A stretch of DNA of 64,000 nucleotides from Saprospiraceae bacterium (GCA_015490715.1 WFXH01000088.1:1-64000), one strand, 5' to 3'. Shown: positions 44,899 through 64,000, numbered from the stretch's first letter. Numbers and translations: made by a program. Notes: generated from the sequence alone by a model not told the origin.

Positions 44899-46377
44899 TC
44901 AATATTTTATACATCGCATTTGATCCACTACTTGGCCTCGCGCATTGGTATAGCGTAATAGGTATATACCACTCGGCAAGTGCTGCGTATTGATGCGTAG
45001 CGTGGTTGTGTTACTGAAATCGTACATGCCGTGATATCGCCCTGTGGGCAGGTGAAAGAGTTGTACGTGGGTAGCATTGGGCAGAGCGGGTACCGTCCAT
45101 TGCACGCCGTCATAGGTCAAAGTGGATGAAACTGTGGGAGTATACACGGAAGTGACGGGAGGCAATTGGAGGTATTGCACCAAGAGTTTTCCGTATACAG
45201 GAGGCAGGACATCTCCTTTATGGGCATTGGAAGTCATCGCGCTTACTGTGACGTTAGCAGGGACATAGTGATAGATATAAGTACGGTATAAGATGCTACC
45301 TCCGTGGCCAATATAGGTGCCGTTTCGATTGGTGACGATGACCAAGCCGAGGCCATAACGCACTCCCTTGCCTATGGGGATACCGTTTGAAATCATTTCA
45401 TTCACAGAAGAGGGTTTGACCACCTGGCCAGTCACCAATTTGTACATCCAATCGGTGAGCAATTGGGGTGTTGCCATGCATGCACCTGCGGCCCATGCCA
45501 TGCTAAACATCGCATTGGGGGAGTAGTTGTATTGTGATAGGTCGTCGGGAATGTTGTCGTTATCGATGTCCAACCAAATGGGAGCTATCGGCCCTGGGGG
45601 CGTGTCGTAGGGAAAGATGGCCATGCCCTCGAGTCCAGCAGGCTCAAAGATGCGCTTTCGGACGAAGACGTGATAGGGCATGCCCGAGGCCTCTTCGATG
45701 ATCAGCCCGAGTAAAAGATAATTGGTATTGGAATAATGCCAACCCTTGCCCTTTTCGAAGTATGGCGTATCGACAAATGTCTGGAGGATTTCTTCGGGCT
45801 GCCAGATGCGCGACAGATCACTCAATATCGTTGAGACGTAATTGGGATGCTCGGTAAAATTGTAGATACCGCTCGTCATGTTGAGCAATTGGCGTATGGT
45901 GATGGTTGAGTCGACATTGGGATAGCTCGGTAGCCATTCATAAAGAGAATCTTCCAAGCTGAGCACACTGTCTTCTACCAAAAGCATTATGGCAGCAGCG
46001 GTGATGCTTTTCGTCACGCTGCCGATACCAAAGTAGTGCTGGGTAGTAGCTTGTGAAGAGGGCATTACCGATGCACCGTTGGCTACTCCCGACCACGTGC
46101 GCTCTTTGTCGTCTCGAATACCTCCAGCCAAGCACAACATGTTTGAATCGCGCTCTACCATCCGAAGGATGCTGTCGAACAACATGGAATCGTGCGCCGT
46201 AAATTGATAACTTCGAAGGTCTACCGTAGTATGAAATGGTGCGTCATAGATGACCTTTGCAAAATCATGCACCTCACTTTTCTCATCCAACATGAGTGGA
46301 ATCTGGGCCGTGTTGGGTAATGAGAGGAGGACGAGTAGAACGAAGACGACGCTCACGGTAGTCACTTTGCACTTCAT
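44899..46377 (-). CDS. Secreted beta-lactamase-fold serine hydrolase with T9SS sorting domain
   Basis: 492 residues from ATG 46377, chosen because the promoter lies just upstream. Signal peptide (about 1-25, ending LPNTAQ). Serine hydrolase motifs: SVTK (S-x-x-K), YSN (Y-x-N) and GHGG in place of KTG, the pattern of class C/DD-peptidase-like esterases (Pfam beta-lactamase). The last ~80 residues (VQLFHLPTGRYHGMY, then LPSGIYLLRYTN and QMRCIKY) form a type A T9SS sorting domain. Hydrolyses an ester or D-Ala-containing peptide outside the cell; substrate not deducible. Confidence 0.85.
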   Translation of the reverse strand: MKCKVTTVSVVFVLLVLLSLPNTAQIPLMLDEKSEVHDFAKVIYDAPFHTTVDLRSYQFTAHDSMLFDSILRMVERDSNMLCLAGGIRDDKERTWSGVANGASVMPSSQATTQHYFGIGSVTKSITAAAIMLLVEDSVLSLEDSLYEWLPSYPNVDSTITIRQLLNMTSGIYNFTEHPNYVSTILSDLSRIWQPEEILQTFVDTPYFEKGKGWHYSNTNYLLLGLIIEEASGMPYHVFVRKRIFEPAGLEGMAIFPYDTPPGPIAPIWLDIDNDNIPDDLSQYNYSPNAMFSMAWAAGACMATPQLLTDWMYKLVTGQVVKPSSVNEMISNGIPIGKGVRYGLGLVIVTNRNGTYIGHGGSILYRTYIYHYVPANVTVSAMTSNAHKGDVLPPVYGKLLVQYLQLPPVTSVYTPTVSSTLTYDGVQWTVPALPNATHVQLFHLPTGRYHGMYDFSNTTTLRINTQHLPSGIYLLRYTNARGQVVDQMRCIKY

Positions 46378-46400
46378 GAGTATAGAGATTTTGGTTACGA

Positions 46401-46431
46401 CAAAGGTATGCAAGCTCTCTGTGCTATCCAA
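46401..46431 (-). promoter_or_regulatory. Complete promoter of the beta-lactamase-like gene
   Basis: Minus strand: TTG (46431-46429), a 20-base spacer, TACCTTTG (46408-46401). The transcript would begin about 20 bases before ATG 46377, which rules out the longer open frame starting at 46431. Confidence 0.7.
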
Positions 46432-54915: not shown

Positions 54916-57630
54916 ATGCCCCGTATACACTGGAGTTTTACCATGTGGTTGTGTTGCTGGTCGATGGTGGTGCACGGTACCGGATTGTTTGTGCCACCCC
55001 CGGATATGGTGATCACATGTGATTTTTGGTATGATCCGTCGACCATCGACGAACCTTCCGATCCCACTTTTGGTAGGGTTGTCTATCGTTCGGATTTGCG
55101 ACGGAAGGTCATCACTTATGATAGACTGTGTTCGGCCTTTTGCCAGGCGGATCCCACAACGGGATACAACCCCGACCAGATAAGCGATGGCTTACCATGT
55201 TCATTTTATCGTGATCTATATCATCCGGCGCATCCCGATGCCGTGCACAAACTCGTTTGGGGATGGGATGGCGTCTCTGAAAGTGGACCTGTGGAAATCG
55301 AGGTGTTTGAAGATCTCTACTGCGGGAAGGGTGTGATTACGCGTACTTTTTACCTGCGTACGTCGCAAGGCAGGGTACCTTGTGGTAGCCAGCGCATCTA
55401 CGTGGTCAATTGTGCACCATTTTATATCAACGAAAGTGTTTGCACCGATCCCAATGACGACATTATCTGGCCCAACAACTGCATCCAGCCCCCAGTCCTT
55501 ACGGAGTGCAATCCCGATATCAGTCCTGAAAATCCTCTCCTCGGTAGGCCCCGTCTTCGTCCGGGCATCAACCGACGATGCAACATGGTGGCCATCAATC
55601 ACCACGATACGTACATCACCGTCGTCCCAAGGGCGTGTTTTAAAGTCATACGCACTTGGCACGTAGTAGACTGGTGTCGCTATGACCCTACCAATCCGCT
55701 TTCCGAAGGCGTATGGACCTTCCGCCAGGTGATTAAAGTACACAACAGGGTTGCGCCTACCTTCCGATGGAAGCTCTTGGACATCAATGTTGGCGATACG
55801 ATGGTGTCTGCTCTATATTCCGACACCCAACGCCTCTGTGCCAACAAGGTCGTCATGCAAATCGAAGCGTCGGACGATTGCACACCGACTCACTTGCTAC
55901 ATACTGGATATGCTATCGACCTCTACAACGATGGCAAGGGGCCGTATGGCAGTTACGACCTCTTTGTGGGAGAGCACTTTGCTTCTAAGGGAGGTCCTGC
56001 ACACGACAATCCCTATGCGTATCGCATCGATCCCTACGATGCCAGTGGAGCATACCCTCTGGGAAAGCATCGCTGGATATGGAAGGTTGAAGATGGTTGT
56101 GGCAACAGCACTGTAATAGACACCGTGTTTGAAATTCGCGATACAAAGCCACCAACGCCGTATTGCCGTCCCGGCATCGTTACTGTCGTGATGCCGGCAA
56201 GTGGAATGGTCGATATCGATGCTGCGCAGCTGGTCTTAAAAAAGGAAGACAATTGTAGCGCTACTACCGACCTACATGTATATTTTGACCCCAATACAGA
56301 GGAGAGTATCCGTACCTTGAGCTGTGCTGATCTGCCGCCCAATGCTCCTGAAGCTCTCCTTCCTATCGATGTCTGGGTCGTCGACGAGGTAGGCAATGCT
56401 GCCGTATGTCGCACTGCCGTAATCCTTCAAGATCCCAATGGTGTGTGCTTTGACTCGACGGCCACGCGCACGGTGACACTTGATCTCTCGCGTTTCCCAC
56501 TTCGACATTTCGATGCTATTACCCTTCGCATAGAGGACACCGCATCTCATGAAGAATTTTATCGCTCTACTGTTTCTCTTAGACAGATGCTCACCGTGCG
56601 TTTTAACGCGGTGGAGATGCGTGATGCATACACAGCTCTGCTGCGCAGCTATACAGGATACTATCCGCGCAACTGGTATCAGCTATCCGACTTGTTTCGG
56701 CTATATTTCCACGTGGCGGGTTTTCAGCCCTTCCGGACAGCACGGGAATACCTCGTAGCGGATATTAACGAAGACGGACTGATCACAATGGAAGACGTCG
56801 GCATCCTGGGCAACATTTTCATGCAACAGCCCGATGTACAATACCTTCGAGACCCATGGATCGAAGTACCCATTGATGCTGCTGAAACTCTCCAAAAGGC
56901 CGTAACACCCCAAGATGCCCCGCTCTTTTTAAGACAATATTTTGGAGGGTTGCTCGCTAAATATTTCGACGACACCCTTCACGCCGTTTTCCTTGCGAAA
57001 GGCGACATCGTACCAGGCACGCCTGTTTATCGCTCGGGAAGTACTCTTTCGGTTGAAATAGAGCAGTCCGAAGAAGACGGCGCGACAGTGGTATCCTTCA
57101 CCCCATCGACGCCCACGGCGCTTATAGGGTATCACCTAAAATGGCGAGGACCTTCTGGTCGTTGGGAGGCGCATCCCTCATCAAAGTGGATATTATTGAA
57201 CAACTGCAAGGGCGACATCTGCGAGATGATCCTGCTGACCAAGGTTGTGCCAGCTCCTCGTACTATCGTACTCATACACCACAGGCGCAACCCTTCTATA
57301 AACACACCCCTTTTACAAGAAGCTGAAGGGATCGACGAGGACTTTTCCATCACTCCACTGAACATCTCTTCTCATCCCGCAAAGGCGAGAATAGTATATC
57401 GAGGTAATGGAGACTTTCTCGTGCTCAGCCTTGTCCCTACGTGGGTAAAAAGCTGGCACTGGAATCTCTATCGCTTGGATGGCCGACGTGTGCAAGGCGG
57501 GCTATTGACTCCATCTGAGGACGGTATGGGATTTATCCGCATTTCTCATCCTATGCCACCAGCTCTGTACTATTTCCACTTTGAAGGTGAAGGGTATGAA
57601 ATCGTTGTCCCAGTAACTGTATTCGACTAA
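54916..57630 (+). CDS. Large secreted HYR-like cysteine-rich protein with dockerin-like loop
   Basis: 904 residues; signal peptide (about 1-24). Then several HYR-like beta modules with paired cysteines: CFKVIRTWHVVDWCRYDP, DTKPPTPYCRPGIVTVVM and VWVVDEVGNAAVCRTAVIL match modules in the next gene. A dockerin/EF-hand loop DINEDGLITMED (near residue 616) has all calcium ligands. Beyond it is a linker region and a terminal beta segment (WNLYRLDGRRVQGG to VPVTVFD) resembling a T9SS sorting domain, though weaker than in the paralogue. Probably a surface-exposed, disulfide-stabilised matrix protein. Transcription from 54884 is likely. Function unknown. Confidence 0.75.
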   Translation: MPRIHWSFTMWLCCWSMVVHGTGLFVPPPDMVITCDFWYDPSTIDEPSDPTFGRVVYRSDLRRKVITYDRLCSAFCQADPTTGYNPDQISDGLPCSFYRDLYHPAHPDAVHKLVWGWDGVSESGPVEIEVFEDLYCGKGVITRTFYLRTSQGRVPCGSQRIYVVNCAPFYINESVCTDPNDDIIWPNNCIQPPVLTECNPDISPENPLLGRPRLRPGINRRCNMVAINHHDTYITVVPRACFKVIRTWHVVDWCRYDPTNPLSEGVWTFRQVIKVHNRVAPTFRWKLLDINVGDTMVSALYSDTQRLCANKVVMQIEASDDCTPTHLLHTGYAIDLYNDGKGPYGSYDLFVGEHFASKGGPAHDNPYAYRIDPYDASGAYPLGKHRWIWKVEDGCGNSTVIDTVFEIRDTKPPTPYCRPGIVTVVMPASGMVDIDAAQLVLKKEDNCSATTDLHVYFDPNTEESIRTLSCADLPPNAPEALLPIDVWVVDEVGNAAVCRTAVILQDPNGVCFDSTATRTVTLDLSRFPLRHFDAITLRIEDTASHEEFYRSTVSLRQMLTVRFNAVEMRDAYTALLRSYTGYYPRNWYQLSDLFRLYFHVAGFQPFRTAREYLVADINEDGLITMEDVGILGNIFMQQPDVQYLRDPWIEVPIDAAETLQKAVTPQDAPLFLRQYFGGLLAKYFDDTLHAVFLAKGDIVPGTPVYRSGSTLSVEIEQSEEDGATVVSFTPSTPTALIGYHLKWRGPSGRWEAHPSSKWILLNNCKGDICEMILLTKVVPAPRTIVLIHHRRNPSINTPLLQEAEGIDEDFSITPLNISSHPAKARIVYRGNGDFLVLSLVPTWVKSWHWNLYRLDGRRVQGGLLTPSEDGMGFIRISHPMPPALYYFHFEGEGYEIVVPVTVFD

Positions 57631-57995
57631 TGCAAGGGGAATAGTGCAGCTTTTTTATGTACTCCGAGAATAGGGGTGGCTGCCGGTTGTGAAAAAAAAT
57701 TTCAAAAATTTTATACATAGAGAAGACACCCATTCAAATTCTTCATAATGTATTAGCTCTTGTGTCCAAACCTCTTGTGAAGGACGGACACACATATGAG
57801 AAATAGCGCCTATATCCATCTGATTTATAATGAGTTAGAGGGCGATTTTTTACAGTCAATTGGAATTGTTTTTGCCTCACTATCGGTGCCGTGATTGACA
57901 TCCTCGAGAGCCGGGGGTGACAATCGCTATAGGCATAGGTGTGCATGTAGTCTGCGGAGGGTAGGTACAAATCGATCAAAACACAACAGAGACCT
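57631..57995. other. Gene-free region between the first and second HYR-like genes
   Basis: 365 bases without a convincing gene. It includes an A/T-rich stretch (57691-57720) and no standard hairpin terminator. A TTGG-N10-GC arrangement (57860-57875) recalls a sigma-54 promoter but is too weak to call. Confidence 0.5.
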
Positions 57996-60900
57996 ATGAA
58001 GGTAAAAACATTACGACGACGCATTTGGACAAGTTGGAGTATGCTGATAGGTCTGTGCATCTTGATGTTGGGATGGCAGATGGAGAGTAGTGCGCAGTGT
58101 ACGCCGACCATTCAGGGTAGGGAATATGTATGTCGTGGCGACAGCGCATTGTATTTGTTTACGGGAGGAAGTACCTTTGGTGGCCCTACCATCACTTGGT
58201 CGGTCAACGGTGGTGGGACGGTATCGACTCCCAACGGCGTGCAGACATACATCACTTGGCACACGACGGGTACATGGGAGGTGTACTTGAGCATCGCCCC
58301 CAATGTGGACTGTCCTGCCGGACAGACGGATACCATCCAGGTGACGGTCATCCCGTCGGCCAACGTCGTGATGGCCTGCAACGACAGTATACAGGTATCT
58401 CTTGGTCTTGACTGTAAAGCCGGTGTGACGGTCAATATGTTGTTGGAGGGGCCGATTCCTTACCCGGACAGCATGTATGAAATCGTACTCATCGATGCCA
58501 ATGGCGATACGCTGGCCGATGATACTGTACGCCAACAACACATAGGACAAGTGTTGACCTATTCTGTCATACATCGCTGCTCGGGCAATAGCTGTTGGGG
58601 ACGCCTGCTTGTAGAAGACAAACTGCCCCCACCGGATCTCGTCTGTGGACTCGACACAGTCGAATGTGGTAGCGACATCAGTCCAGACGTACTTGGTTTT
58701 CCTCTCCCAGCAGGTGCATCTGTGATGCCCATAGCGGGCCAACCCAACAAGTGGAAGGTCATGGGACTGGACAATTGCGCCGATGTCGTGTTGAGCTATA
58801 TCGACGATGTAGTACCCGACACCTGTCCGTTCGTCCAAAAGATTTACCGCCACTGGATGGCTACCGATGGCTCGTCGACAGTTAGCTGTATCGATACGAT
58901 TTGCGTATTGGCAGGTACGATCGACAGCACTATCTGGCCACCCGATTGGACGGGGCTCCCCGGCGATAGCATGATGCTTTCCTGCGATGGGGGCTTTCCC
59001 GTATTGCCTCCGGGGCACGAGTTTGAGGGCAATCCGCACCCCGATTATACGGGATGGCCCTTCAATGGGGTGGTCTGCGAAAATATTGCCATCAGCTTTA
59101 CCGACCGACGCTTTGGCGTCTGTCAGGGTACGTATAAAATCTTGCGTGAGTGGACAGTCATCGACTGGTGTCGCAACGATATACAGACGCACAATCAGGT
59201 CATCAAAGTCGTCGACACGCTGGGCCCCATCTTGAATTGTCGTTCGACATGTCGCGAACCCATCGTGGTACACACGACGCCAGGTACCTGTACGGCTACG
59301 TATCTCTTACCTGTTCCACAAAACTGCAATGCCTGTGGTGTAGTCAATGTCGTCAGCGAGTGTTCGGATTGGACGTATACGGTGCGACATAAGGGGCCAC
59401 CAAACGACGAACCCTTAGCTTGTGACGAAGATTACCTCGCAGTCTATACGGGCAAGTATATCCGGACGGTCGTTGTGGGGGGACAGCTGCGATACGAGGC
59501 CTATGATTTGCCCGTAGGGTACAACTGGATAGAATACACTGTCACAGATGCATGCGGCAATTCGACGAGCTGTACCATTGAGATTCTCGTCGTGGAAAAT
59601 GAGCCCCCTGTTCCGGTATGCGATGAGCACACCGTCGTGACCATCGGTCAGGATGGTGTGACCAAACTCTTCGCTGAGACCTTAGACGACGGATCGCACG
59701 ACAACTGCAGCCCACGCATTTGGTTTAAGGTCTTGCGCATGGACGAAATTGCATGCGACGGCATCAACGGAGATGACGATGCGCTCTTGCCCGGTGTTCA
59801 AGTCTATTTCGACGACTTCGCTATGTTTTGTTGTGCCGATATCGGCAAGAGTACCATGGTATCCCTTCGGGTGTTTGATGTCGATCCCGGCACGGGCCCC
59901 GTACATCCCTCACGCATGGAGCCCGGAGGGGATCTCTATGGACATTTCAGCGAGTGTATGGTAGAAGTAGAAGTCCAGGACGACACGCCACCGATCCTGG
60001 ATTGTCCAGATAGCTATGTACGTGTGCCCTGTGGTACAGATTTAAGTGACCTATCGCGTTTTGGCCAACCTACTGTGGAAGATGACTGTCCGGTAGAGCT
60101 ACTATATAGTGAAGTGCGTCGCCTTAACGACTGTGGGTTGGGACGCATCACCCGTACCTGGAGGGTCAAAAATCGCCCCTTCATCTCGTGTAGACAAACG
60201 ATTGAAGTCGTACCGGATGCCGCGTTTAATTTAGAGACGGCCATCCTATGGCCTCCACATCTCAATTTACCCAACGGGTGTTTGAGTTCGCTGCATCCGG
60301 ACAGCATACCCTCTAAGCCGCGTGTGAAAAACTCGGTCGATCCCGATTGCCATTCGATCTACTTCAACTACACCGACAAGGTATACGACATCGTCCAGGG
60401 TGCGTGTTTTAAAATACTCCGCACTTGGACAGCCTTAGACGATTGCACCAACCAGACAGCCGAGTATACGCAATACATAAAGGTGCTCAACTCGATTCCG
60501 CCTCAAGTCAGCTGTCCATCCGTAGTCCAGGTAGAGGTAGACAGCACCGATTGTTCGGCCTATGTTGTTGTCAAGGCGGAAGCAGAAGACGAGTGTACGC
60601 CATCGGAGCAATTGAAATGGCGCCACGAGATTGACCTCAACAGCGATGGCACCATTGATGCCACTGGCACGGGTGCAGATGCCTCGGGCATCTACACCTA
60701 TGGCACAAATGGCCGCCATCGGGTGCGATGGATTGTTGAAGATCAATGCGGCAATACATCGACATGTACGACCGTCATACACATGCGCGATACCAAGCCT
60801 CCATCGCCGTATTGTCGTGGTGGACTGGTCACCGTAGTGATGGAGACCAACGGTGAGGTGGAAGTATGGGCAAAGGAATTCGACATCGGCAGTACGGATA

Positions 60901-62345
60901 ATTGTACACCAGCCAACGAGCTGCGCTTTTCCTTCGATCCCTATGGTGCCCAACCTTCGAAGATCTTTAGTTGCGACGATATCGACAATGGTATTTTCGA
61001 TACCCTTGAAGTGGACATTTGGGTCATCGATCGCAGCGGCAATCGGGCCAAATGTACGAGCCGCATCATTCTCCAGGACAACAGTGCAAATGTATGCCCC
61101 GATGCGGGCTCTCTCACGGCGGGTATCAGTGGTACCGTTGTCAATCCCCTTCAGAGTGGGGTAGAAAGTGTGCAGGTAGTCCTCAATACGCCCTTTGACG
61201 AAATACGCACACAGACGACCAATGCCGAGGGACAATTTGCCTTTGAAGATCTACCGTTACGGCAGGATTATGAAGTCAAAGCACAAAAGGGCGGCCAATG
61301 GCTCAACGGCGTCACTACCATGGATATCATCCGAATACATAAGCATCTTTTAGGCATATCCTCATTCAATAGCCCGTATCAATACATCGCTGCAGATGTC
61401 AATCAATCCGATTATGTCAGTGTTGGCGATATCGCTGAAATACGCGCACTGATCCTCGGAAAGATTCGCAAATTCCGCAAAGCGCCGTCATGGGTCTTTC
61501 TACCTAAGGACTATCACTTTGCCAATCGCTTTGAGCCGTATGTGTATCCGCAGCAAATAGTGATTCAATCGCTGCCCGAGGGTGGGGCACGAGCCGATTT
61601 TGTCGCTGTCAAGATGGGCGATGTCAACTTTTCGGCGCGTACGCAATGGTCGACGCAAAACGCGCCGCGCACGCAGAAGCCCAAGGTGCAGTTGACTACA
61701 CTGGATAAGGTCTTTCATAAAAATGAAATCGTGCGCGTGCCCATCCACATTGCGCACAAGGATCTCATCGGCATTCAGTTTGCACTGCGCTTCGATGTCG
61801 AAAAGGTAGAGCTTAAAGACATTCTCTTCGGCCGAGATGTATCGGAAGACAATGTGGGATTGAGCGATGTCGATCAAGGGCTGATACGTTTTTCGTGGAG
61901 CGATGTGCAGAGCAAGTGTGATCCGCAGCCCCTGGTGCTTGTCTTTCGGGCCAAGCACGATGGACGCGTTGCCGAAATCCTCTCATTAGATCCTGCTATC
62001 CTCGCACCAGAAGCATACGACGCGGGTGAGCAGACGTATGAATTGCGATACCGCGTGCGCGACCATTCCGACAATACTGTGGAGGGCTTTGCCTTACTCC
62101 AAAACCGACCAAATCCATTCGACAAATCGACGACCATTGGGTTTATCCTGCCTCGTAGCATGCACGCCCAGATCGTCATCTACGATATCACGGGACAGGT
62201 GATTTGGAAATATGCTGGGCTATTTGACGCCGGTTACAACGAAGTAAGAGTATCCGCCGAAACCCTCGGAAAAGTCGGTGTACTCTATTACCGCCTGGAG
62301 ACCAAAGAGTTTGCATCCACTCGCAAAATGCTCCTGACAAAGTAA
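57996..62345 (+). CDS. Giant multidomain T9SS-secreted HYR-like protein with cohesin- and dockerin-like modules
   Basis: 1449 residues. Signal peptide (about 1-34, ending ESSAQ). Domains in order: a PKD-like segment (about 36-125, with FTGGSTFGGPTITWSVNGGG), several Cys-rich HYR-like modules (about 125-1070), a CnaB-like domain (about 1075-1110, SGTVVNPLQSGVESVQVVLN), a dockerin-like part with one intact calcium loop DVNQSDYVSVGD, and a cohesin-like beta domain (about 1235-1340, RVPIHIAHKDLIGIQFALRF). It ends in a type A T9SS sorting domain (about 1365-1449, LLQNRPNPFDKSTTIGFILP to ASTRKMLLTK). It should be carried to the cell surface. No enzyme motif seen, so a structural or adhesive role is likely. 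Confidence 0.85.
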   Translation: MKVKTLRRRIWTSWSMLIGLCILMLGWQMESSAQCTPTIQGREYVCRGDSALYLFTGGSTFGGPTITWSVNGGGTVSTPNGVQTYITWHTTGTWEVYLSIAPNVDCPAGQTDTIQVTVIPSANVVMACNDSIQVSLGLDCKAGVTVNMLLEGPIPYPDSMYEIVLIDANGDTLADDTVRQQHIGQVLTYSVIHRCSGNSCWGRLLVEDKLPPPDLVCGLDTVECGSDISPDVLGFPLPAGASVMPIAGQPNKWKVMGLDNCADVVLSYIDDVVPDTCPFVQKIYRHWMATDGSSTVSCIDTICVLAGTIDSTIWPPDWTGLPGDSMMLSCDGGFPVLPPGHEFEGNPHPDYTGWPFNGVVCENIAISFTDRRFGVCQGTYKILREWTVIDWCRNDIQTHNQVIKVVDTLGPILNCRSTCREPIVVHTTPGTCTATYLLPVPQNCNACGVVNVVSECSDWTYTVRHKGPPNDEPLACDEDYLAVYTGKYIRTVVVGGQLRYEAYDLPVGYNWIEYTVTDACGNSTSCTIEILVVENEPPVPVCDEHTVVTIGQDGVTKLFAETLDDGSHDNCSPRIWFKVLRMDEIACDGINGDDDALLPGVQVYFDDFAMFCCADIGKSTMVSLRVFDVDPGTGPVHPSRMEPGGDLYGHFSECMVEVEVQDDTPPILDCPDSYVRVPCGTDLSDLSRFGQPTVEDDCPVELLYSEVRRLNDCGLGRITRTWRVKNRPFISCRQTIEVVPDAAFNLETAILWPPHLNLPNGCLSSLHPDSIPSKPRVKNSVDPDCHSIYFNYTDKVYDIVQGACFKILRTWTALDDCTNQTAEYTQYIKVLNSIPPQVSCPSVVQVEVDSTDCSAYVVVKAEAEDECTPSEQLKWRHEIDLNSDGTIDATGTGADASGIYTYGTNGRHRVRWIVEDQCGNTSTCTTVIHMRDTKPPSPYCRGGLVTVVMETNGEVEVWAKEFDIGSTDNCTPANELRFSFDPYGAQPSKIFSCDDIDNGIFDTLEVDIWVIDRSGNRAKCTSRIILQDNSANVCPDAGSLTAGISGTVVNPLQSGVESVQVVLNTPFDEIRTQTTNAEGQFAFEDLPLRQDYEVKAQKGGQWLNGVTTMDIIRIHKHLLGISSFNSPYQYIAADVNQSDYVSVGDIAEIRALILGKIRKFRKAPSWVFLPKDYHFANRFEPYVYPQQIVIQSLPEGGARADFVAVKMGDVNFSARTQWSTQNAPRTQKPKVQLTTLDKVFHKNEIVRVPIHIAHKDLIGIQFALRFDVEKVELKDILFGRDVSEDNVGLSDVDQGLIRFSWSDVQSKCDPQPLVLVFRAKHDGRVAEILSLDPAILAPEAYDAGEQTYELRYRVRDHSDNTVEGFALLQNRPNPFDKSTTIGFILPRSMHAQIVIYDITGQVIWKYAGLFDAGYNEVRVSAETLGKVGVLYYRLETKEFASTRKMLLTK

Positions 62346-62404
62346 TTCGGGCCATGGATATCACGAAGCACATGCAATGGGTCATGAACAAAAGAGTGAA
62401 GATG

Positions 62405-64000
62405 ATGAAAGTGAAAAGTACAATTCTTATGAAGAAATATATCGTCCAACTGGCACTTTGGCTTGGGGTCATAGGTGTTGCCGGGCCTGTGGCTGCACAA
62501 TTTCATATCGAAAAACACATCATCGACGTGCAGCCTGCATCGTCGGGTACGGCTGGACATCTCGACGTGACTTATCAAATTCTGGTAGTCAACAACAGCG
62601 GTGCCTTGACGACGGGACATATCCTCGACGCTCTGGACGATCCTGCCAATCTCGACGGGGCCTTTGTCGGTCTGGTCAATGTGCCTCCGGTACAGGTGGA
62701 TTATGTCTCCATGGGCTCGTTGGGACTGGCCAATGGTTCTTATGACGGCCTCTTAGCAGGAGATCCACAAGTGGCCTCGGCCTCTCTGGAAAATGGCGAC
62801 ACCGTCATTGTCTCTTTTACGGTAGAGGTGGATCCCCTTGCTGGTGGCGGTGGCCCTATTCCCAACAGTGCGGTGTTTGATTGGCTAATCGACAGGGTAA
62901 CTTCAGCCCCAGCAATCTTGCAAGATTGCTGGTCGGACTGTGTGTTGGCCTGTAATAACCTTGTGCACGTATCGGTCAATTCCCAATGTGAGGTCAATAT
63001 CTTAGCGCAATCCATACTCGAAGGAGAAGATTCCTCTTGTATAGCCCTGGGCATTTTCGAGGTCATCATCCTCGATCAGAATGGCGATACGCTCACTCCG
63101 CCTCTGGGCAGTGCTTATCTCGGCGATACTCTGTACGTGTCGGTAAAAAACATCGTCTGCGGCAATAGCTGTTGGGGCAAAATACTCATCGAAGATAAAA
63201 CAGCGCCGGATTTGAGCTGTGGCTCGCGTGTCGTTAGCTGTAATGCGAGTTTAGACCCCGTCGATATTGGTTTTCCCATACCTGTGGATTCGATACTCAA
63301 CCCCAATGGACCGCCCCCTTACATTGCTACGGGCATCGATGCATGCGGCAATGTCGAGCTGACGTATCGCGACAGTGTGGTCGATCGCGGATGCAACGAC
63401 ACCAGTGCCATCGTCTATCGCAAATGGAAGGCTACTGACCCTTCGGGGTACATGGCCATGTGCTACGATACCATTTACCTAATACGTGGCAACATCACGA
63501 GCATTGATTTGCCGCCCCACTACGACGGCGTCTCAGTCAATCCCGAGGGAGATCCACCTATGCCGCCCCTGCCCGCATGTGGCGGTACATGGACAAAATT
63601 CCCCAACGGATTTCCCGATACAAGCGCAACGGGTACGGGTGCGCCAAGTGGTGTCTCGTGTGGCAAAATACAGTTTTATTTCGAAGACGACACCATTGAG
63701 ACCTGTGGAGCGGGTTTTAAGTTGCTGCGCCATTGGATTATATTGGACTGGTGCAATCCCGATACGACACTGGAATATCTTCAGCTGATTAAAATCGTGG
63801 ACGACGATCCACCCGTGATCTATTGTCCCGGCACACATGGGGTACCTGCCGATACGGTGCCGACAAAACCATGGAGCTGTACGGCAGATTATATCCTGCC
63901 TGTGCCGCGCGAAATCGATCGCACTCCTGTGCCTGACCCCTCTCAAGTATGGGTAATAAGTGAATGTAGTGGGTGGACCTACGAAGTGCGCCATCTGCCG
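62405..64000 (+). CDS. Third HYR-like secreted protein (partial, runs off the right edge)
   Basis: 532 residues are visible, with no stop before the window ends. ATG 62405 is preferred: its first four residues MKVK also begin the preceding gene, and a signal peptide (MKKYIVQLALWLGVIGVAGP, cleaved near VAAQ) follows; ATG 62429 is an alternative. After the signal comes a DUF11-like repeat segment (about 35-170, LDVTYQILVVNNSG), then HYR-like modules that align with the second gene: GNSCWGKILIEDKTAPDLSC, FKLLRHWIILDWC and SECSGWTYEVRH. The intergenic gap is only 59 bases, so it is probably co-transcribed with the second gene. Its C-terminus is unknown. Confidence 0.85.
   Translation, partial: MKVKSTILMKKYIVQLALWLGVIGVAGPVAAQFHIEKHIIDVQPASSGTAGHLDVTYQILVVNNSGALTTGHILDALDDPANLDGAFVGLVNVPPVQVDYVSMGSLGLANGSYDGLLAGDPQVASASLENGDTVIVSFTVEVDPLAGGGGPIPNSAVFDWLIDRVTSAPAILQDCWSDCVLACNNLVHVSVNSQCEVNILAQSILEGEDSSCIALGIFEVIILDQNGDTLTPPLGSAYLGDTLYVSVKNIVCGNSCWGKILIEDKTAPDLSCGSRVVSCNASLDPVDIGFPIPVDSILNPNGPPPYIATGIDACGNVELTYRDSVVDRGCNDTSAIVYRKWKATDPSGYMAMCYDTIYLIRGNITSIDLPPHYDGVSVNPEGDPPMPPLPACGGTWTKFPNGFPDTSATGTGAPSGVSCGKIQFYFEDDTIETCGAGFKLLRHWIILDWCNPDTTLEYLQLIKIVDDDPPVIYCPGTHGVPADTVPTKPWSCTADYILPVPREIDRTPVPDPSQVWVISECSGWTYEVRHLP

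Follow-up and report, generated by a model that had tools for sequence, protein, structure and literature searches.

The genes at the right end of the window encode giant, cysteine-rich stalk proteins that, at roughly even chances in our estimation, form a calcium-dependent cohesin-dockerin network on the cell surface after export by the type IX secretion system (T9SS), a network built of stalks and not of enzymes. The window, the whole stretch analysed here, starts at base 1 of a contig of 69,106 bases and ends at base 64,000, in a genome of 2.45 Mb and 115 contigs. The most telling part of the system is a dockerin-cohesin cassette in the stalk proteins together with a set of tandem-cohesin partner proteins, both of which were missed by the first-pass annotation of this DNA. 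At their C-terminal ends the proteins bear cohesin and dockerin, the two parts of the plug of cellulosomes, and this suggests surface proteins that are assembled by plugging together.

Four genes make up the array. Gene 1 (g1, 54916-57630, plus strand) is an open reading frame of 904 aa with a signal peptide, a short Cys-rich stalk, a degenerate dockerin and a divergent C-terminal sorting region. Gene 2 (g2, 57996-62345, plus strand) encodes a full-length family member of 1449 aa with 53 Cys. Gene 3 (g3) begins at 62354 on the same strand and is still open at the window end (64000), with at least 549 aa inside the window. The first-pass annotation had named a stop of g3 as a non-secreted pseudogene just past the window as a finding that would speak against it, and had suggested that more copies might follow. 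When the sequence was extended to the right, g3 proved intact up to contig position 66838 (1494 aa, 48 Cys and an intact sorting domain), and a further copy, gene 4 (g4), was found to start at 66960 and to continue for at least 715 aa until it is cut off by the contig end at 69106. The intergenic gaps are 365 bp (g1-g2), 8 bp (g2-g3) and 121 bp (g3-g4), and as those among g2-g4 are short, these three genes could be co-transcribed. A promoter scan of the array gave no excess over shuffled sequence and a terminator scan (15 versus 11.6) was uninformative. Further upstream in the window, at 44899-46431, a serine hydrolase with a beta-lactamase fold (PF00144, 144.8 bits) carries its own T9SS sorting domain (24.2 bits).

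The first three genes had been described as related on the basis of shared motifs, and the relationship was borne out by homologous regions that are long, much more similar than by chance and extend well past what a common HYR profile would give. By BLASTP, g2 and g3 are 33.5% identical over 1376 aa (E = 0) and g1 and g2 29.7% over 569 aa (E = 3e-54), while g1 matches g3 at E = 8e-45 and the family profile A1 at positions 10-758 (E = 2e-194). The W..(I/V/L)DWC motif occurs in all genes, GNSCWG...EDK in g2 and g3 with the variant GNQCWG in g4, SECS.WTY.VRH in g2 and g3, and DTKPP.PYCR.G in g1 and g2, with a degenerate form in g3. The GNSCWG and SECS modules are absent from g1. The MKVK start that g2 and g3 had been thought to share is a coincidence: the longest reading frame of g3 begins ahead of this tetrapeptide, which the sister species has not kept.

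The predicted proteins follow a shared plan of a variable head, a Cys-rich Ig/HYR-like stalk and a nearly Cys-free C-terminal cassette. The heads differ among copies: that of g4 is Laminin_G_3 (LamG/ConA-like, 111 bits) and that of another family member, C75b, consists of DUF11 repeats. The proposal of a cysteine-rich stalk is supported by the position of the cysteines, 52 of 53 in g2 and 48 of 48 in g3 lying before the cassette. In g2 the stalk occupies 58359-61103 on the plus strand (approximately residues 122-1036), and its AF2 models (pLDDT 78.8 and 85.2) predict a string of Ig-like beta domains. Foldseek searches with the stalk returned generic Ig/cadherin chains, mostly cadherins, titin and complement. 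The HYR profile (PF02494) scored 28.4 bits in g2, above the gathering cut-off of 21.7, but the best stretch covers only profile positions 54-80 of 81; neither g1 nor the in-window part of g3 contained a match to it. The stalk resembles HYR and HYR_4C (PF23237) in its HYR-like stretches, with g2 above the HYR cut-off, but differs in that only about 27 residues match in g2 and in having longer modules and a cysteine pattern of its own.

Within the cassette the predicted order is a CarboxypepD_reg/Cna-like domain, dockerin, cohesin and a type A T9SS sorting domain. On the plus strand of g2, these are found as a CarboxypepD_reg/Cna-like Ig domain at 61125-61298 (PF13620, 5e-7, 30.4 bits, just below the cut-off of 32.3), a dockerin-containing block at 61248-61637 (A3 profile, 173 bits), a cohesin-like domain at 61686-61913 (PF00963, 22.7 bits, just below the cut-off of 24.1) and the type A C-terminal sorting domain at 62109-62333. 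The cohesin and the dockerin of g2 itself are both just below the Pfam cut-offs, and PF00963 scores above 24.1 were obtained for the cohesins of three paralogues (C41, 55.8 bits; C85, 41.3 bits; C34, 32.0 bits).

The family dockerin profile matched the solved ScaB dockerin (4uyp) at E = 5e-9. The match to solved dockerins begins at the end of calcium loop 1 and includes loop 2 and both helices; the first half of loop 1 is absent from its usual position and appears instead at the C-terminal end of the block. There, a conserved K-x-G-D-V-N motif follows a hairpin about 100 residues downstream of the loop 1 remnant, and in g2 this GDVN motif, which we propose to be that half of loop 1 in a new position, occupies 61617-61628 on the plus strand. 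An alignment of 57 sequences, which represent over 25 genera, shows no variation at D421, D445, D456 or G519 and 98% conservation at D520 (residue numbers follow the top row of alignment A1). By comparison with solved dockerins, D421 would be position 12 of loop 1, D445 and D456 positions 1 and 12 of loop 2, and D520 the missing position 1 of loop 1. With the GDVN block grafted before the two helices, the profile aligns end to end with solved dockerins, and its summed score against four solved dockerin segments increases by 51.7 bits; the median for the 91 blocks tested was 1.2 bits and the best block off the motif gave 17.2, any added calcium-loop-like motif inherently raising such scores. 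Together these observations support the view that the cassette dockerin is circularly permuted. AF2 models of the dockerin block had block means of mostly pLDDT 84-95. A dockerin-like pair in ordinary order, unlike that of the permuted cassette, was noticed in an 822 aa protein of the same genome (L121:1325-3793), which also has a sorting domain and, by eye, a cohesin-like region.

Export by the T9SS, proposed earlier from the end of g2, is supported by the direct TIGR04183 search, in which the sorting domains of g2 (26.9 bits) and g3 (36.3 bits) exceed the cut-off of 23. No sorting domain was identified in g1 by this search, its end being homologous through the family profile only. The genome encodes the T9SS machinery in the form of full-length PorU sortase (1074 bits) and SprA (2129 bits), and contains 52 sorting domains above cut-off. 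From these sorting domains and the presence of PorU and SprA, the window proteins are putative type A cargo of the T9SS.

Candidate partners for the dockerins were found as tandem-cohesin proteins. C85b, encoded adjacent to the family member C85, contains cohesin-like domains in four copies (79 bits, with three of the stretches passing the Pfam threshold) together with SprB repeats and a type B sorting domain of the CHU_C kind; it is followed by a PorP/SprF gene in an arrangement that is conserved in the sister species. The C85b-type locus (L036:3018-6890) has relatives in ten inspected loci (L111-L120), usually with PorP/SprF downstream. The C85b-type proteins of other genera contain 2-8 cohesins, with Pfam scores of 71-197 bits in those scanned, and a gene of about 260 aa with a single cohesin and a type A sorting domain is often located beside the tandem-cohesin gene, sometimes preceding it. 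Scans of cassette proteins, scaffolds and heads detected no enzyme or CBM family, except for the LamG/ConA-like head of g4.

Of 61 Saprospiraceae genomes, 53 contain both the cassette dockerin and a match to the tandem-cohesin profile; the eight genomes without either were G006, G007, G022, G023, G034, G453, G473 and G474. Because the lenient tandem-cohesin profile may match the cohesins of the cassette, a strict cut (best E <= 1e-45) was applied, which left a tandem cohesin in 44 of the 53 cassette genomes versus none of the 8 others (Fisher 8e-6, relatedness ignored); since the genomes are related, this co-occurrence is not independent evidence for each genome. The genes are also clustered: at least 11 of the 42 best scaffolds, one being taken per genome, are located within 10 kb of a cassette, with 2.2 expected (P ~2e-5). 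This test is preferred over the ten inspected loci because those were partly picked for their cassette neighbourhood.

The array is part of a large family. A genome search with g2 returned 48 matched segments in approximately 20 genes, in addition to two weaker HYR-type proteins, and the family genes total 25,610 aa or 3.1% of the genome. The assembly breaks repeatedly in or beside family genes, as seen at the contig ends of C25, C34, C41, C42, C58, C62, C69, C75 and C88, and because many copies are at contig ends, the number of family members in this MAG, and in others like it, is uncertain. Stalk and cassette were present in most Saprospiraceae genera sampled and no other family of the order gave scores comparable to these. 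Of 396 genomes drawn from across the phylum, with two candidates scored per genome so that copies may be missed, only three outside Saprospiraceae had a match at 1e-40, all covering the cassette alone.

The first-pass annotation had ascribed the array to local expansion by duplication, which the phylogeny does not support. Branches between the g1, g2 and g3 lineages measure 1.2-3.3 versus 0.02-0.2 between orthologues, the sister grouping of g2 and g3 has 65% support only, the best relatives of g1 are copies on other contigs, and the copy nearest to g3 lies on contig C80. Recent tandem duplication is supported by neither the tree nor the best matches, though the data neither establish nor reject a clade of g1, g2 and g3 (AU p = 0.40). 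In the tree these are deep, separate lineages, and the paralogues split long before the two sister species diverged. One pair of copies stands apart: the 3′ ends of the family genes on contigs C62 and C34 (L037:1-810 and L039:5980-6789) are 97.8% identical over 810 nt, other copies being far more diverged, and a 371-nt stretch common to C34 and C69 is 89.5% identical. Such similarity suggests that the cassette underwent duplication or gene conversion recently, or that the assembly contains an overlap.

In the sister species the four-gene array is kept in the same order, beside sucD and TamB. Identity to the orthologues is 82.5% for g1, 92.6% for g2, 92.4% for g3 and 93.9% for g4, there is no indel in g2 or g3, and all cysteines are conserved in both (53/53 in g2 and 48/48 in g3). 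With dN/dS values of 0.065 (g2), 0.071 (g3), 0.064 (g4) and 0.19 (g1), as compared with 0.02 for sucD and 0.14 for TamB, the array genes are constrained by purifying selection and are not decaying repeats.

The most likely mode of action, in our view, may be depicted as follows: The giant stalk proteins would be exported by the T9SS and anchored through the sorting domain. Calcium would then allow their dockerins to plug into cohesins, either on adjacent rods or on tandem-cohesin scaffolds, and the resulting cell-surface network would present different heads for adhesion, as a matrix or for particle capture. In its more specific form, to which we give somewhat less than an even chance, this would be a non-enzymatic cellulosome-like network in which permuted dockerins plug into SprB-type tandem-cohesin scaffolds as well as into the cohesins of the stalk proteins themselves, with dozens of heads displayed in a modular manner.

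The dockerin and cohesin of the same chain could instead pair in cis, which would give no network, and a rigid base formed in cis is the main rival to it. The proteins would then be ordinary T9SS adhesins or stalks in which the Cna-like domain, dockerin and cohesin constitute a calcium-stabilised base with no intermolecular plugging. In favour of this, the two domains lie side by side in full-length copies, the models of the dockerin block are of high confidence, and calcium-binding linkers are used by many bacterial adhesins. This explanation leaves unaccounted for the tandem-cohesin partners, their matching presence and absence and their clustering with cassette genes, and we regard it as less likely than the network. 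A self-assembling paracrystalline S-layer or disulfide-linked sheath, in line with the disulfide-stabilised surface layer or matrix proposed in the first-pass annotation, appears improbable: the high Cys content, fully conserved between species, the many copies and a weak Foldseek likeness to the Ig chains of S-layers, Sap among them, speak for it, but divergent copies with different heads are unlike the single repeating subunit of a lattice, the Ig-chain matches are generic, and no S-layer anchor domain was found. A role in an apparatus for predation or capture, on the model of the Aureispira grappling hook protein GhpA, likewise a giant Ig-like surface protein from a genus placed in Saprospiraceae, is most improbable, as the GhpA base structure 9fly ranks second and fifth in Foldseek but with TM-scores of just 0.12-0.18, unrelated Ig chains score alike, and homology was rejected on a fold match that is generic and on the absence of any sequence match to 9fly even at E <= 10.

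The proposed cohesin-dockerin network resembles the cellulosome, e.g. that of Acetivibrio cellulolyticus ScaB, in its non-catalytic tandem-cohesin scaffolds (four cohesin-like domains in C85b and up to 8 in relatives) and in its many dockerin-bearing clients. It differs from the cellulosome in that the clients are Cys-rich stalks, those tested being without enzyme or CBM except for the LamG-like head, that the dockerin halves appear rearranged and each client has its own cohesin, and that export and anchoring would be by the T9SS. The scaffold partners share SprB repeats, the CHU_C type B sorting domain and the adjoining PorP/SprF with the SprB-type gliding and adhesion proteins of Flavobacterium, but bear 2-8 N-terminal cohesins, whereas the window proteins lack SprB repeats and are predicted type A cargo. 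Cohesins and dockerins outside cellulosomes are in themselves already known. In the open-access papers searched, we found no description of the T9SS combined with tandem-cohesin SprB-type scaffolds and non-enzymatic, Cys-rich clients with rearranged dockerins. As each module is known and the combination is absent from the literature searched, these are known modules in a new combination.

If the network exists as proposed, a family-wide T9SS version with stalks in place of enzymes would represent a new way to organise the Gram-negative surface. It would also provide a concrete, testable function for hundreds of proteins now recognised by 'HYR / T9SS sorting domain', in bacteria that are common in activated sludge and in the sea.
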